DNA from: a virus
Virus record (IMG/VR): IMGVR_UViG_3300035698_013060
Location: 1 to 64,000 of that record
DNA: 64,000 bases
Reading direction: 5' to 3' (one strand)
This document shows positions 2,937 to 53,597 of the stretch, one piece after another (within the stretch, counting starts at the first letter, position 1; each line of letters begins with the position of its first letter). Made by a program: the position numbers and the translations under genes. The notes beneath the pieces were generated by a model. The model searched no databases. It was not told the origin of the DNA and worked only from the letters and a program-made list of their open reading frames with translations.

Positions 2937-3099
2937 TTTTGGAGGGTGCGAAGTAACACCCAATGCTTAATTTCTTGTTTCTACACAGGAGCCCTCAACC
3001 GGGACTTTCCCTAGGGTGATGAGTAGGAGCATAGAAATATCTTTACACTCAAGGCGCTTTTGAGGTTCCCTTTGACCTGAGCAACCCGACGGGAGAACT

Positions 3100-3107
3100 C
3101 ATATTAG
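3100..3107 (+). promoter_or_regulatory. Candidate phage promoter, CATATTAG
   Basis: An exact copy of the window's repeated motif, 102 bases upstream of the RNA polymerase beta fragment. It resembles the TATATTAC early promoter reported for phiKZ-like phages. A leader of about 100 bases would precede the gene. Confidence 0.6.
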
Positions 3108-3208: not shown

Positions 3209-4708
3209 ATGAATCAATCGGAACTCGTCTCCGCTGTCTCTGACAAGTCGGAGCCGTTCAACGAAGAAATGATCTTCTACAGAGAGCGAGAATCCATCAT
3301 CGCTCATCTCGAAAATATATGCAGGGCACTCGAGGTCATTGAATACATCAAATTCGTCGGCCTCGATTGGGAAGACGATGAGAGCAAGATGACTGCTTTC
3401 TCCACGGTGGACATCAAGCAAGCCAGGTTCGCCGAAGTTACGATGCGCTTCAGAGTAACGTACAAAGGGGAAACCCAAGACGTTATCAAGAAGACCTTCA
3501 TCCCGAGACTTGTCGACAACTTCTTCTTCATCATCAACGGCATACGCTACTATCCGATTTATCAGATAGTGGATCGAGGAGTATTCGTCACGCCGAAGGT
3601 GTATTCGTTGAAGACACTGCTCATGCCTATCCGCTTCAAATACAAACGGGTAGCAATGGCCGATGCGCACGACCAAGAGTTTGAAGCTCATGAGTTCGAG
3701 CTGAATCTGTTCAAAAACAGTATCAGTTATCTGTACTACTTCTTCGCAAAAATGGGTCTTCACGGGACTCTGGGATACTTCGGTTACGAGTACGGCGACG
3801 GTGCAGACCTGCTTCTCGTCGAGGCTGATGAACTGGAAGACTTGTCAGCGTACAAGAAGAGCATTTTCTATTCGTTCTGGTTAAAGGGTGATCTCTGGTT
3901 GATAGCCAAGAAGAAGACCTTTAAGACCGAAGAACAGAAGAGCTTTCTCTACTCGCTTGTCGAGGTCCTATCTGTGATAGGAGATGTCGAGGACATTGAA
4001 GAGGAATGGCTTCGTGTACTCGGAAGCCTCTTCACCAAGAGTGCTAACAGCAGGGTCGACAAGGCCCGCAAGGTTCTGTTCTCGTTGGAGAGGATTCTGG
4101 ACGACGAGACCAAGCGTATCCTCAGCGAGATCAAGCCGGAAGACAAGGAAGACACTTATTCCATCATCAGGTGGATGCTTCGTGAATTCGAAACACATCA
4201 GTACCAGGACAACGTTAGCCTCCGCTGCAAGCGGATGCAGTGTTGGGAGTATCTCACCAATCCACTTCTACGGTTTTTCAGTAACGCTACCTATCGCATT
4301 CTCAACACGAGAAACCTTACTATCAGGACTCTGACCGGTGTATTCAACATCGGCCCGAACTTCTTGACAAAGAGGTTACTCAGCAACGAACTGGTCAGAT
4401 ATGAAGGTGGAGTAAATGCCATCGACCTCTTCGGGGCATCTTTGAAAGTGACCATGCGTGGGGCTGGATCTATCGGTGGCTCCGGTGGAGACGTCTCTGA
4501 CAGATACCGAGGAGTGCACAAGAGTTACGTTGGAAATCTGTCGTTGGTTACAGCCAGCCCAGGTGATCCTGGACTGAGTGCAGTACTCACCCCATTTGCC
4601 AATGTTGAAGAAGGTGTGTTCAACATGTTGGAAGATGAGCTGGCGGACAAACCTACTAAGAAGGCTAAGAAGCCCGCGACTAAGAAAAGAGGAAGGGAAA
4701 AGAAGTGA
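3209..4708 (+). CDS. RNA polymerase beta subunit, N-terminal part
   Basis: This is the N-terminal half of a split multisubunit RNA polymerase beta subunit. Around residues 105-125, FFFIINGIRYYP followed by QIVDRGVFVTPK matches the cellular pattern FIVNG...VSQ..RSPGVF. Near residues 430-465, RGVHKSYVGNLSL and then SPGDPGLSAVLTPF matches the conserved stretch [20 protein letters not shown]. The frame stops soon after, and the 499-residue product ends in a Lys-rich tail, so the catalytic C-terminal half of beta must be encoded elsewhere. I did not find it in this window. The next gene overlaps by four bases. Split beta genes are known in phiKZ-like phages. Whether this belongs to the virion or the non-virion enzyme cannot be told from here. 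Confidence 0.85.
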   Translation: MNQSELVSAVSDKSEPFNEEMIFYRERESIIAHLENICRALEVIEYIKFVGLDWEDDESKMTAFSTVDIKQARFAEVTMRFRVTYKGETQDVIKKTFIPRLVDNFFFIINGIRYYPIYQIVDRGVFVTPKVYSLKTLLMPIRFKYKRVAMADAHDQEFEAHEFELNLFKNSISYLYYFFAKMGLHGTLGYFGYEYGDGADLLLVEADELEDLSAYKKSIFYSFWLKGDLWLIAKKKTFKTEEQKSFLYSLVEVLSVIGDVEDIEEEWLRVLGSLFTKSANSRVDKARKVLFSLERILDDETKRILSEIKPEDKEDTYSIIRWMLREFETHQYQDNVSLRCKRMQCWEYLTNPLLRFFSNATYRILNTRNLTIRTLTGVFNIGPNFLTKRLLSNELVRYEGGVNAIDLFGASLKVTMRGAGSIGGSGGDVSDRYRGVHKSYVGNLSLVTASPGDPGLSAVLTPFANVEEGVFNMLEDELADKPTKKAKKPATKKRGREKK

Positions 4709-5580
4709 TTGATCGAACGTCAACGATGATCAAAGTCAGAACTGCAGCGGCCATCGCTAACGTCGGTCTTCCTACTTACTACTTCTCATCAGAGGTGGCC
4801 CCGCTTGGGGTCACCTTTCCGGGGTGTAAGAATGTTCTGAAGACCATAAAGGCCATTCTAAAAGAAGGTTACACTGGCTTTTGCTTAAGAACAGAATGGC
4901 CAGATAACGCTCATCTGGAGCAGTGTAAGGGATTCCAATGGCCTCTATACCCTGTCAATCTAAACAGTCGCCTGAAGTTTTACATCTTTAGGAACATTCA
5001 ACCAGGTTCAACTGATACGACTTACGCTATTGACTATCTTGAGGCCATACTAGATGGAGGGGTTAGCAAGTACGGAAGGATGGATCCGTCCCTTGATCTT
5101 TCAAACACCGTAGACTTTAATGAGATTGTCCAGCCTTTCGGGGCGTTCCCTTTCATATACGAACATGTGAGTTGTTATCAGATGAGGATAGCCATTCAAG
5201 ACTCCTCTAAGATATCTCATTGGAACGCTACGGTGGCATGGGATAGAATCAATGGAAGAATGGATGGAAGGTACGGACTGGTCGGCGAGGTCAACCCCAC
5301 AAGCGATATCTCTCATAGGGAGGCTTTGAGTTCAGGAGGATTAAAGGCCACGGGCGTCCTCCCAGTCAGTCAATGGTTCTCTGAGGACAGAGGCAAGCTC
5401 AGATACATCATGCGAGACCATGCCATTCCAGGTATCTGGTATGAGTGTTCTAAGATTGATGGTTCTCGTTTTCAGTTTTGGGACATTGCTGAAGACTCCA
5501 CTAGAGCTTACAGTTCTTGGTGTCTGAATCACCTGAAAGACATCGATCTGATAGAGTATCATCTGGACTACCGTAAATAA
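4705..5580 (+). CDS. Hypothetical protein
   Basis: A 291-residue protein that I do not recognise. It starts at a GTG overlapping the stop of the RNA polymerase beta fragment (GTGA), with GGAAGGG upstream. An ATG seven codons further in is an alternative. The sequence is rich in aromatic residues and Trp, with no membrane segment, signal peptide or clear catalytic motif. The tight coupling suggests co-expression with the polymerase fragment. It is followed at once by a CATATTAG motif and a folded non-coding stretch. Confidence 0.8.
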   Translation: MIDRTSTMIKVRTAAAIANVGLPTYYFSSEVAPLGVTFPGCKNVLKTIKAILKEGYTGFCLRTEWPDNAHLEQCKGFQWPLYPVNLNSRLKFYIFRNIQPGSTDTTYAIDYLEAILDGGVSKYGRMDPSLDLSNTVDFNEIVQPFGAFPFIYEHVSCYQMRIAIQDSSKISHWNATVAWDRINGRMDGRYGLVGEVNPTSDISHREALSSGGLKATGVLPVSQWFSEDRGKLRYIMRDHAIPGIWYECSKIDGSRFQFWDIAEDSTRAYSSWCLNHLKDIDLIEYHLDYRK

Positions 5581-5594
5581 ACCATACGGTTGAT

Positions 5595-5603
5595 ACATAT
5601 TAG
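5595..5603 (+). promoter_or_regulatory. Candidate phage promoter, ACATATTAG
   Basis: An exact motif copy 15 bases after the preceding stop codon. No convincing gene follows. What follows is a 350-base folded stretch ending in a terminator, so this may drive a non-coding RNA. Confidence 0.6.
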
Positions 5604-5957
5604 TAATGTATCGCGAACGATGACGTTCGTGTTGCAAAGGTACCTGGTGGACCAATGCGTAAAAAGGAAGGTTATTGATCCGTGCGCTAATGGAAGCGTG
5701 TGCACGGGGAGACTATGCCAGCCTCTGTATCCCGTCGCCTTCGGGTGTACGCTGGGATCAGGTGCAGAGGAGTCAGGAATATTGTGATCTAAGGCCCAGC
5801 AACAATTGTGGATTAAGTCGCCCTGGCAGCGATACCACGACCTAGACCAATGGAAAAAGGTTTCCAACCACTGGTCGATCCGCCGAGGTATATCGGTTTT
5901 TAAGTAATCCGCCGATAGGGTCCTGAAAGGGGCCTTATCGGTATTCCTTTTTCTTTT
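5604..5957 (+). ncRNA. Candidate structured non-coding RNA
   Basis: About 350 bases without a credible gene, bounded by a CATATTAG motif and a terminator (stem CCGATA with TATCGG at 5912-5941, then a T-rich tail). Several hairpins can be drawn by hand. They are CGAACG/CGTTCG near 5612-5628, CCGTGC/GCACGG near 5680-5708, CCTCTG/CAGAGG enclosing ATCCC/GGGAT near 5723-5772, and ACCA-TGGAAA/TTTCCA-TGGT near 5846-5877. This density of nested stems suggests a folded RNA. I do not recognise it as tmRNA, RNase P RNA, 6S RNA or a group I intron. A 65-codon frame inside looks accidental. Confidence 0.6.
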
Positions 5958-5981
5958 CTATGCTCCCTTTAGAAAGAAGAA

Positions 5982-6009
5982 GGCCCCTATCCCGTGAAGG
6001 ATAGGGGCC
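5982..6009 (-). terminator. Terminator after major capsid gene
   Basis: A perfect 11-bp stem (GGCCCCTATCC and complement). On the minus strand it follows the capsid gene stop by about 40 bases and is followed by TTCTTCTTTCT. It faces the plus-strand terminator at 5912-5957. Confidence 0.85.
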
Positions 6010-6047
6010 AACTCGAACTTCAGACCGAAAGGTCTGCTGGGACTCCG

Positions 6048-7715
6048 TTACGGAGTGGGCCAGCTGACGGCGCCGGTGTTGTTCTTGATCTCAATGCGGA
6101 AAATCGCATCGTTGAAGTACTCAGTCAGATGCCGCTTCGCGATCATGATGCTCGGGACCAAGCTGTACTGGGGATCCGAGTAACCCTTCTCGACGTTGAA
6201 GCTGTAGGGGAAGTACTTGTAGGTCATCTGCTCGTCCTGGGACGAGACAAAGATCACGTACAGGTAGCCCTGAGGCATCGCCGGGGTAGACACGATCTCG
6301 TAGCGATTTGCACCGCTGATAGCGCCGAGGCTGTAGTCTGCTTCCACACCCGAGCGTTCGCCAGCGGAACCAACAAAGGTCCAGGTGACATTCGGGAGCA
6401 GGTTGCAGTCCAGATCATTGCCGATGATCACGAACTTGCCGCCCGTGAACATACGATCCTGCTTGAGCTTCGTGGCGTAATGGTCGATCACGTCCTTCAG
6501 CATTTCGCGCCAGGCCTTCGGCGTACCGGAGAACTGTGCGTAGGGCTTCAGGTCGAATTCGGCCGGATAACGCTGGTCGCGGGCATAGCCCTCGACGATG
6601 AAGTCGCGCAGCTCGTGGTCGAGCTTCAGTGCCAGGGTGTTGGTCATGATATCGACGACCTTCGCGGCACCGTCGATATTGTACATGGCCATCACGTCTT
6701 GCAGGAACTCGATGGGAAGCGGGGCGTTCAAGTGTGTGCCGGTTCCGATCGTCAGGTCGCGAGTCTGAATGTCAAACGAGATACTCTCGGTATGCATGTT
6801 GAATTCAGAGCTGAGCTTACCCTTGATCTTCACTCCCAAGACGAAACCGCCGGTGGTCGCCAGCGTCAACGTCCCTGTCACACGATCCACACGGCCGAAC
6901 AGGTTGTCGGTCGTAGGAACTGCACCAGTCAAGGGGTTGCCGTCGACATCCAGGTCACTGGGATGGTACGCAGAGACGGCGTAGAAAACATCACCGTTCA
7001 GGCCACAACCGATACGTAGCTGTTCCACATCCACTGGTGCATCAGCATCACCGCCGAGGCTATGAGTGGTGGTGATCCGAACTGCGATCACATGGAAATC
7101 CGGATCAACACTGTCACCGACTGCCGCAGAGGCAACTGCCGCACCGGGAAGAGTCCCCAACAGGTCGAAGCCCTTGGTGGCACCGTCTACAATACCAGCA
7201 CCGTAATCGGTGTCGGCCAAGAACAGCCAATCATTCCAGAGAGACTGGCCTTCGACCAGACCTTCTGCACTGCCGCCGTCCATGATGGCTTCGGGCAGGT
7301 AATGGCGAACGCCATTCTTGATGATGTACGGAAGCAGGTAGCTGACCGAGAACTTCGGCAGCTTCACAACTTCGGTCGGAATGGCGTTCTTCATCGCCAT
7401 CCGGGGCCAAAGCTTCCTGATCGTCGGAACGCTCAGGCTGCTGATCGGGGTAACGCCGCTGAGGCTCTCTTGGAGAGTCGTCATCCGGCTGTTGTCAATG
7501 AGTTGCGCCAAGGAGTCCTGCTCATCGGCATCGACGCCCTTAAGCATCGCGGCCTTGTAGTCCTCGAACAGCCCGTTGTCGCTCAAGATCTCCTGGTAAC
7601 CTTCACCCAGGATATTGACGTGCTGTTCATCGAACAGGGCTTTTGCCTCATTCAGGACTTGGCTGTAGCCATCCTGTTTGGGCGCACCGAGATTGGTGGT
7701 CTTGTATGAAATCAT
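6048..7715 (-). CDS. Major capsid protein (T4 gp23-like)
   Basis: The main shell protein of the head, 555 residues. The body has gp23-type features: the stretch after residue 90 (VPTIRKLWPRMAMKN) and the C-terminal region with VTWTFVGSAGERSG, then YKYFPYSFNVEKG and LVPSIMIAKRHL, which matches the end of T4-type capsid proteins. The ATG follows GAGGAA. Codons are more GC-ended than in neighbours, as expected for very high expression. The first residues are MISYKTTN, and VLNE ends at residue 23. Other phage proteins here share this kind of N-terminus, and the prohead protease may cut at that site. A promoter must lie in the 205 bases upstream, which hold no gene. A terminator follows. Confidence 0.88.
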   Translation of the reverse strand: MISYKTTNLGAPKQDGYSQVLNEAKALFDEQHVNILGEGYQEILSDNGLFEDYKAAMLKGVDADEQDSLAQLIDNSRMTTLQESLSGVTPISSLSVPTIRKLWPRMAMKNAIPTEVVKLPKFSVSYLLPYIIKNGVRHYLPEAIMDGGSAEGLVEGQSLWNDWLFLADTDYGAGIVDGATKGFDLLGTLPGAAVASAAVGDSVDPDFHVIAVRITTTHSLGGDADAPVDVEQLRIGCGLNGDVFYAVSAYHPSDLDVDGNPLTGAVPTTDNLFGRVDRVTGTLTLATTGGFVLGVKIKGKLSSEFNMHTESISFDIQTRDLTIGTGTHLNAPLPIEFLQDVMAMYNIDGAAKVVDIMTNTLALKLDHELRDFIVEGYARDQRYPAEFDLKPYAQFSGTPKAWREMLKDVIDHYATKLKQDRMFTGGKFVIIGNDLDCNLLPNVTWTFVGSAGERSGVEADYSLGAISGANRYEIVSTPAMPQGYLYVIFVSSQDEQMTYKYFPYSFNVEKGYSDPQYSLVPSIMIAKRHLTEYFNDAIFRIEIKNNTGAVSWPTP

Positions 7716-40328: not shown

Positions 40329-40780
40329 GGGGGCGAATATGGTCTCGACTGGGTAGACTAAGGTGATAGCTGCGTTCAGAGGATGGGTCGTTGGCCTCTG
40401 TAAAAACATCGACCTGCAAACACAACTGCCAAAACCACACCGGTTATGCAGTTCCCCGCTCCTCTTGCCCTCGCGGCATAAGGAACTAGTTGACGAGACA
40501 ATGCCCGGCCGAACTCGCCGCCCTAGAGGCACAGAGTTTCGTCACGTCAGCGAAAAGAACATAGGTATCGGGTAAAGAACCCACGGGTCGTGTAGCTAAC
40601 GTACACGTGGACGGTCCTTCGGGACCACTAGCTCGACTCACAATGTCGCTCTTCGGAGCGGTGGAGTGTCTTTCCATGCCTGTAATAAGGTGAGTCGTAT
40701 CGGCACAAACATAGACTATAACGTAGACGCTATTACTAAGTGTATCTAGGACCCGGGTTCGACTCCCGGCGCCTCCACCA
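40329..40780 (+). ncRNA. ssrA: Transfer-messenger RNA (tmRNA)
   Basis: A one-piece tmRNA of 452 bases. The 5' end GGGGGCGAATATGGTCTCGAC pairs its first seven bases with CGCCTCC at the 3' end, followed by ACCA, forming the alanine-tRNA-like acceptor. The T arm is GGGTTCGACTCCC. The tag reading frame starts at a GCA resume codon at 40416 and encodes 21 residues that begin ANTTAKTT and end PLALAA before TAA at 40479-40481, the typical degradation-tag ending. The tag is about twice the usual length. Several stems between 40560 and 40690 suit pseudoknots. tmRNA frees stalled ribosomes and marks the broken protein for proteolysis. Phage-borne tmRNA is rare. Confidence 0.93.
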
Positions 40781-52898: not shown

Positions 52899-53597
52899 AT
52901 GATGAAGAGACTGAGGGAAGATGCGTCCACGATAAGGCGTATGTGGAAGCTGTTACTGTCGGACTTCGTTGTCGGCTTCGTATCGGCTGTGTTCATGGCT
53001 GTTTTCTTCAAACTCAAAGGAGAGTATTTGACGCTATCAACTATCGCTATGTTGGGATGCTTTGGCAGTTCAGCTGGAATACTCAGACCGATGTTCGCTA
53101 AAACGAGTTTGAAACGTCTCAGGACATGGGCTATAGCATTGGACCTTCTTAGTTCGTTCACCATGGTAGCGTTTGTATTCGTGAAGAATCCTCTGTGTTT
53201 AATCATAGCGACGATCAACAACATTGGAGTGGGAACGACATACGGAGCTATGGACGATGGTATTGAGCATAGCATTATGGAGGCAGGAATAATGTATCGA
53301 GTCCATAAGTCATGGGCTAGAACATTTGGGTGTGCCGGAGCTCTAACGGGAGGACTTGCTCTCACTTTATTGAATGGTATGGGACTAGTTGACAGCGATA
53401 CTGCTCTAGCATTTGCCTGCTCAGTCAATATACTGGTCCTACCAGTGACGTGGTGGGCTGTCGAAGAGTGGGTGAGGCGAATGCTTACTCTTCTGATACA
53501 TATTAGTAATTTAGACTGGAATGGTTTCAGTCTGTCGCAGGAGGCTCTAGGTGAACATCACCGAGACAATCCAGCGGGCAATAGCAGCGACCCGTGA
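52899..53597 (+). CDS. Multi-pass membrane protein
   Basis: A 232-residue protein with about six hydrophobic segments (for example LLLSDFVVGFVSAVFMAVFF split from LTLSTIAMLGCFGSSAGI, and ALAFACSVNILVLPVTWW). The ATG at 52899 has AAAGGAGG upstream. No family is recognised; a holin-like, transporter-fragment or signalling role cannot be told apart. The C-terminal 35 residues overlap the next promoter motif and the start of the next gene. Confidence 0.72.
   Translation: MMKRLREDASTIRRMWKLLLSDFVVGFVSAVFMAVFFKLKGEYLTLSTIAMLGCFGSSAGILRPMFAKTSLKRLRTWAIALDLLSSFTMVAFVFVKNPLCLIIATINNIGVGTTYGAMDDGIEHSIMEAGIMYRVHKSWARTFGCAGALTGGLALTLLNGMGLVDSDTALAFACSVNILVLPVTWWAVEEWVRRMLTLLIHISNLDWNGFSLSQEALGEHHRDNPAGNSSDP
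53498..53506 (+). promoter_or_regulatory. Candidate phage promoter, ACATATTAG
   Basis: An exact copy in the 3' end of the membrane protein gene, 45 bases before the next start codon. The same 9 bases followed by TAAT also occur at 5595. Confidence 0.6.

Follow-up and report, generated by a model that had tools for sequence, protein, structure and literature searches.

Setting of the locus and its probable early promoter

The window analysed here comprises positions 1 to 64,000 of a 241,176-base virus record (a 241-kb jumbo phage), classed as AR9/PBS1-like from its sequence. The major capsid protein aligns with the Bacillus phage AR9/PBS1 counterpart over 98% of its length at 40% identity, and the AR9-group genes for the nvRNAP beta part, the head protease, and a terminase homologue are present. 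The genome GC content is 48%, far from that of the AT-rich AR9 relatives. The candidate RNA lies within an intergenic gap of 467 bases (5581-6047). This gap is flanked by a plus-strand ORF of 291 aa, for which a search for relatives returned none, and by the convergent capsid gene on the minus strand. The upstream operon begins with a homologue of the N-part of the nvRNAP beta subunit (35% identical to AR9 gp104), which is preceded by an early motif at 3099-3107. The features of the locus are as follows:

3209-4708, plus strand: 499-aa homologue of the N-part of the nvRNAP beta subunit (PHROG 2943, E 4e-43), with which the upstream operon begins
4705-5580, plus strand: 291-aa ORF without relatives; its stop lies 14 bases before the promoter motif, with no terminator between
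5595-5603, plus strand: core ACATATTAG of a putative early promoter (virion RNA polymerase type), a genome-wide intergenic, gene-directed motif that fits the AR9 early consensus
5610, plus strand: predicted transcription start (A), 6 bases past the motif as in AR9
5911-5957, plus strand: intrinsic-terminator-like hairpin (14 bp, stem 5911-5942) and T/C-rich tail, resembling the hairpins at other gene ends of the phage
5982-6009, minus strand: terminator hairpin of the capsid gene listed below
6048-7715, minus strand: major capsid protein gene, convergent

The early promoter of AR9, read by the virion RNA polymerase, has the form AAATATATATTAT-(6N)-G+1 with a core ending in TATATTAT (PMC5312081). 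The present genome was searched with the pattern N[CT]ATATTA[CG]. The seventh base past the motif (+1) is a purine in all 21 gene-directed intergenic copies (12 G and 9 A), whereas it is mixed in copies outside this set. The convergent orientation of the next gene kept the copy at 5595-5603 out of the gene-directed set; nevertheless, that copy reads ACATATTAG-TAATGT-A and also carries a purine at +1. The sequence ACATATTA occurs 10 times on the plus strand and once on the minus strand, in intergenic, gene-directed positions. Taken together, the invariant purine, the fit of the focal copy, and these counts make a promoter-type motif of the AR9 early class well supported at this site. As in an AR9-type early unit, an AT-rich core ending in TATATTAT is followed, after 6 bases, by a purine (CATATTAG-TAATGT-A). 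The promoter motif reported in the first-pass annotation, made from the letters alone, is therefore confirmed as one that recurs across the genome, and its suggestion of possible early expression gains support from the match to the AR9 early consensus (PMC5312081) and from the purine. Its start at 5604, on the other hand, should be moved to A5610, six bases past the motif, since a purine occupies +1 in the 21 gene-directed copies and at the focal site. The GATACATATTAGTAAT stretch of the focal promoter is repeated exactly at window positions 53496-53511, ahead of a gene whose start is at 53551.

At the other end of the unit, the hairpin at 5911-5942 is followed by the tail ATTCCTTTTTCTTTT. GC-rich hairpins were found near the end of 56 of the 220 called genes, commonly with a T/C-rich tail, and the GC-containing hairpin with a T-rich tail at 5911-5957, already noticed as a GC stem with a T tail, fits this style. 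Between the end of the 291-aa ORF (5580) and the promoter, no GC hairpin followed by a T tail was found, so transcripts of the operon, which carries its own early motif, should enter the RNA unit. This would make the region both a transcription unit of its own and, at least, the 3′ UTR of the nvRNAP-beta/291-aa operon. This operon context, with the unit directly downstream and no intervening terminator, had been overlooked previously.

Coding potential and predicted fold

The gap was scored with hexamer statistics trained on the genes of this phage, in which true frames reach 0.30 +/- 0.13 per codon and false frames -0.66 +/- 0.25. Three candidate frames on the plus strand and one on the minus strand score -0.20 to -0.29, and few of the phage's other long gaps look less coding than this one. 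Membrane proteins may escape a hexamer score, but the gap contains no hydrophobic ORF. A search for protein relatives of its small ORFs found none, so the earlier impression of no convincing frame holds. It might be proposed that the region encodes a small protein (TTG5675-5845, 56 aa) on an early mRNA whose 5′ leader is structured, as this 56-codon frame is open and lies just behind a Shine-Dalgarno-like AGGAAGG. However, its codon score is -0.27, the TTG is located about 3 nt from AGGAAGG, a spacing that is too short, and the frame has no homologue; we regard such a gene as very unlikely. The region thus has its own promoter motif with a predicted start, its own terminator-like hairpin, and no coding frame, which are the sequence-level marks of an independent ncRNA and can be read directly from the DNA.

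The structure predicted between the two ends consists of the following elements, given with their pairing probabilities:

5612-5631, plus strand: 5′ hairpin of 8 bp with an ATGA loop (0.95-1.0)
5662-5670, plus strand: AAAAAGGAA, complement of the 3′ tail and possible closing helix (five core pairs at 0.91-0.99)
5680-5707, plus strand: predicted hairpin CGUGCGC..GUGCACG (at least 0.97, single sequence)
5722-5770, plus strand: predicted long hairpin CCUCUG..CAGAGG (0.86-1.0, single sequence)
5772-5827, plus strand: predicted hairpin (about 0.92, single sequence)
5838-5877, plus strand: predicted hairpin GACCA..UGGUC (0.88-0.98, single sequence)

The stems described in the first-pass annotation were borne out in part. 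The whole region folds more stably than its shuffles (z -3.96), but the other strand is nearly equal (z -3.65), and the 271-nt body (5636-5906), with the end hairpins removed, gives z -0.91 on the plus strand (31 of 200 shuffles) and -2.03 on the minus strand. The excess stability comes mostly from the 5′ hairpin and the terminator, and the body is unremarkable. For 5610-5950, the ensemble diversity is 36.7 as compared to 85.3 +/- 23 in shuffles, and there are 71 confident pairs compared to 28 +/- 18, a number reached in none of 120 shuffles. When the ends were held fixed and the body alone was shuffled, energy, ensemble diversity, and the number of confident pairs each gave p ~0.05; the corresponding value for 3′-tail pairing was p ~0.017. 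These results indicate clearly structured ends and a body that exceeds chance weakly at best. The tail matches AAAAAGGAA perfectly over 9 nt, a match equalled by 1.6% of body shuffles (p about 0.02), and the predicted helix formed by 5662-5670 and 5944-5952 could close the RNA.

The 5′ hairpin of the unit is not special, as hairpins of this kind are common to many early transcripts of the phage, a generality that had been missed. A fold of at least -8 kcal/mol stability within the first 35 nt is predicted for 55% of early promoters as compared to 19% of intergenic controls, although the rank test is weak (p 0.03). Stable hairpins at or near +1 are seen, for example, at sites 53498, 103330, 138605, 210499, 234817, and 236543. 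Such hairpins possibly protect the 5′ ends of early transcripts.

Relatives and other RNAs of the phage

A covariance search of the region against Rfam, as the first-pass annotation had suggested, gave no family match at gathering score (tmRNA, RNase P, 6S, group I/II introns, GOLLD, ROOL, and others), in agreement with its statement that the region is not tmRNA, RNase P, 6S, or a group I intron. The size and the predicted multi-branched fold would suit a diverged member of a catalogued class, such as RNase P RNA, 6S, tmRNA, a self-splicing intron, or a large ornate phage RNA. Nevertheless, a search at E up to 10 returned just three weak matches far under their gathering scores, and the tmRNA of the phage is located elsewhere, which leaves this assignment highly improbable. 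This tmRNA lies at window positions 40329-40780 on the plus strand (Rfam RF00023, 102 bits) and was missed by ARAGORN; it has a CCA end and a tRNA-like domain, its middle aligns poorly, and tRNA-Arg (39118) and tRNA-Lys (41383) are found nearby.

Comparison of the RNA region with phages and plasmids by blastn gave no match. Three segments of the RNA were used as exact patterns against IMG/VR; two had no match, and the one obtained with GGGGAGACTATGCCAGC was rejected as chance, being located in an unrelated contig of 60% GC. An 18-mer searched in GTDB genomes gave 10 matches against 7-8 expected by chance, as estimated from the collection size, and none extends past 24 nt. Whole-record searches of related phages revealed no homologue of the RNA region, and no comparable gap was found after the nvRNAP-beta gene in four distant relatives. 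The nearest capsid relative is one contig with 66% identity, and other capsid or nvRNAP-beta relatives, 31-40% identical, are without such a gap. In the 66% contig, a 483-aa repeat-bearing ORF (3634-5085, minus strand), endonuclease-like by eye, lies downstream of the capsid gene, and no RNA is seen there. The lack of relatives in the collections searched (Rfam, blastn sets, IMG/VR patterns, GTDB, and related records) is weak evidence. Antisense pairing to the translation starts of the phage gave best energies within the range of reversed controls, and no target stands out. The earlier designation as a new phage ncRNA can be kept insofar as the region is non-coding and uncatalogued by sequence; a new RNA family with conserved stems finds no support, as no homologue was found and body stability is close to chance.

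These data also bear on the view that the RNA does no work of its own. The region would then be nothing more than the end of the early nvRNAP-beta/291-aa operon, comprising its 3′ UTR and terminator, or else what is left of a gene since lost; the promoter would be a relic of an early gene that was deleted. The absence of a terminator from 5580 to the RNA, the near-chance stability of the body (z -0.91), the lack of conservation and of any homologue, and the distant relatives without such a gap are what would be expected in that case. It is less easily reconciled with a promoter that is intact, with the expected spacing and start base, with the presence of a terminator, with the tail-to-body complementarity (p ~0.017), and with the fact that a decayed frame has left no trace. 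A mere UTR or remnant is considered unlikely.

It is also worth noticing that another region of the genome, 221550-224640 on the plus strand, contains eight structured RNA-like units, six of them within 223.5-224.6 kb and five of those in direct tandem. Their hairpins start at 221572, 222014, 223562, 223711, 223854, 224004, 224153, and 224490, with a spacing of ~143-150 nt in the main cluster. A triloop hairpin of the CCCRGG-UCU-CCYGGG type, showing compensatory changes, recurs in each unit and is surrounded by a closing helix of 7-10 bp that differs in sequence from unit to unit (e.g., TTCCCGCA/TGCGGGAA, CGATCGTA/TACGATCG, and TTCCAGTA/TACTGGAA); variable stems follow this first hairpin. No match was found in Rfam, by phage blastn, or in the AR9-like records tested, and the units look like a new multi-copy ncRNA family. 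Directly ahead of the unit at 222014 stands an early promoter motif, TCATATTAG (221988-222014); the virion RNA polymerase may therefore transcribe at least this one of the eight. Membership of the 5610-5950 RNA in this family was considered and rejected, as the hairpin motif of the family is absent from it. The 221-kb units show the internal covariation that this RNA lacks, and they are judged the better lead.

Proposed role and known systems

The region is a probable early non-coding RNA gene or 3′-UTR RNA, apparently lineage-specific and with a predicted structure. We consider it likely that an early non-coding transcription unit of ~340 nt extends from A5610 to about 5950 and operates by the following mechanism. 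Immediately downstream of the nvRNAP-beta/291-aa operon, the injected virion RNA polymerase would initiate at the early promoter that belongs to the RNA itself. It would stop at the hairpin 5911-5942, and read-through from the operon would add further copies as a 3′ UTR. A stable hairpin would block each end of the RNA, and the U-rich 3′ tail may pair with AAAAAGGAA near the 5′ end, closing the molecule. With both ends blocked and closure possible, the RNA would be expected to be stable and to have an early function in trans. We infer its transcription, stability, and closing helix; a function in trans is speculative and appears doubtful. Were it to exist, binding of a host or phage protein, or action as a sponge, would be the most likely form. 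The fuller picture of a lineage-specific, multi-branched, end-closed RNA that is made by the virion polymerase in the first minutes of infection and has a trans-acting effect on some factor of the host or the phage (e.g., RNA polymerase, a nuclease, or a defence protein) is quite unlikely. The RNA is a lead rather than a family, because it comes from one uncultivated phage without relatives. Few ncRNAs have been described in jumbo phages with their own RNA polymerases. If the proposal is true, an early RNA with a virion-polymerase promoter, encoded beside an nvRNAP gene, would offer a concrete candidate for a regulator that acts at the RNA level, either on the switch from early to late expression or on the takeover of the host.

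The RNA can be compared with the GOLLD and ROOL large ornate RNAs (PMC12286853), which are likewise large structured ncRNAs of bacterial or phage association; in contrast to the present RNA, which has no Rfam match, these families are defined by comparative support. The early units of AR9 (PMC5312081) resemble it in the promoter, TATATTAT-(6N)-G+1, and in the related genes nearby (nvRNAP beta and capsid). However, short ORFs fill the place after gp104 in AR9, the present promoter is less AT-rich, and the word "noncoding" is absent from the text of the AR9 paper (PMC5312081). A likeness in general description is seen with phiKZ, a jumbo phage of the same wide group with two phage-encoded multisubunit RNA polymerases. 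A 3′-UTR ncRNA of ~100 nt and a 5′-UTR ncRNA of ~180 nt were confirmed there by Northern blotting (PMC8545117), and this kind of RNA is therefore already known. The 3′-UTR ncRNA, between PHIKZ298 and PHIKZ297, also lies behind a protein gene, ends in a terminator-like hairpin, and contains no small ORF (PMC8545117). Unlike the present RNA of ~340 nt with its own predicted early promoter, it has two stems and no mapped start of its own, and is thought to be processed from mRNA (PMC8545117).
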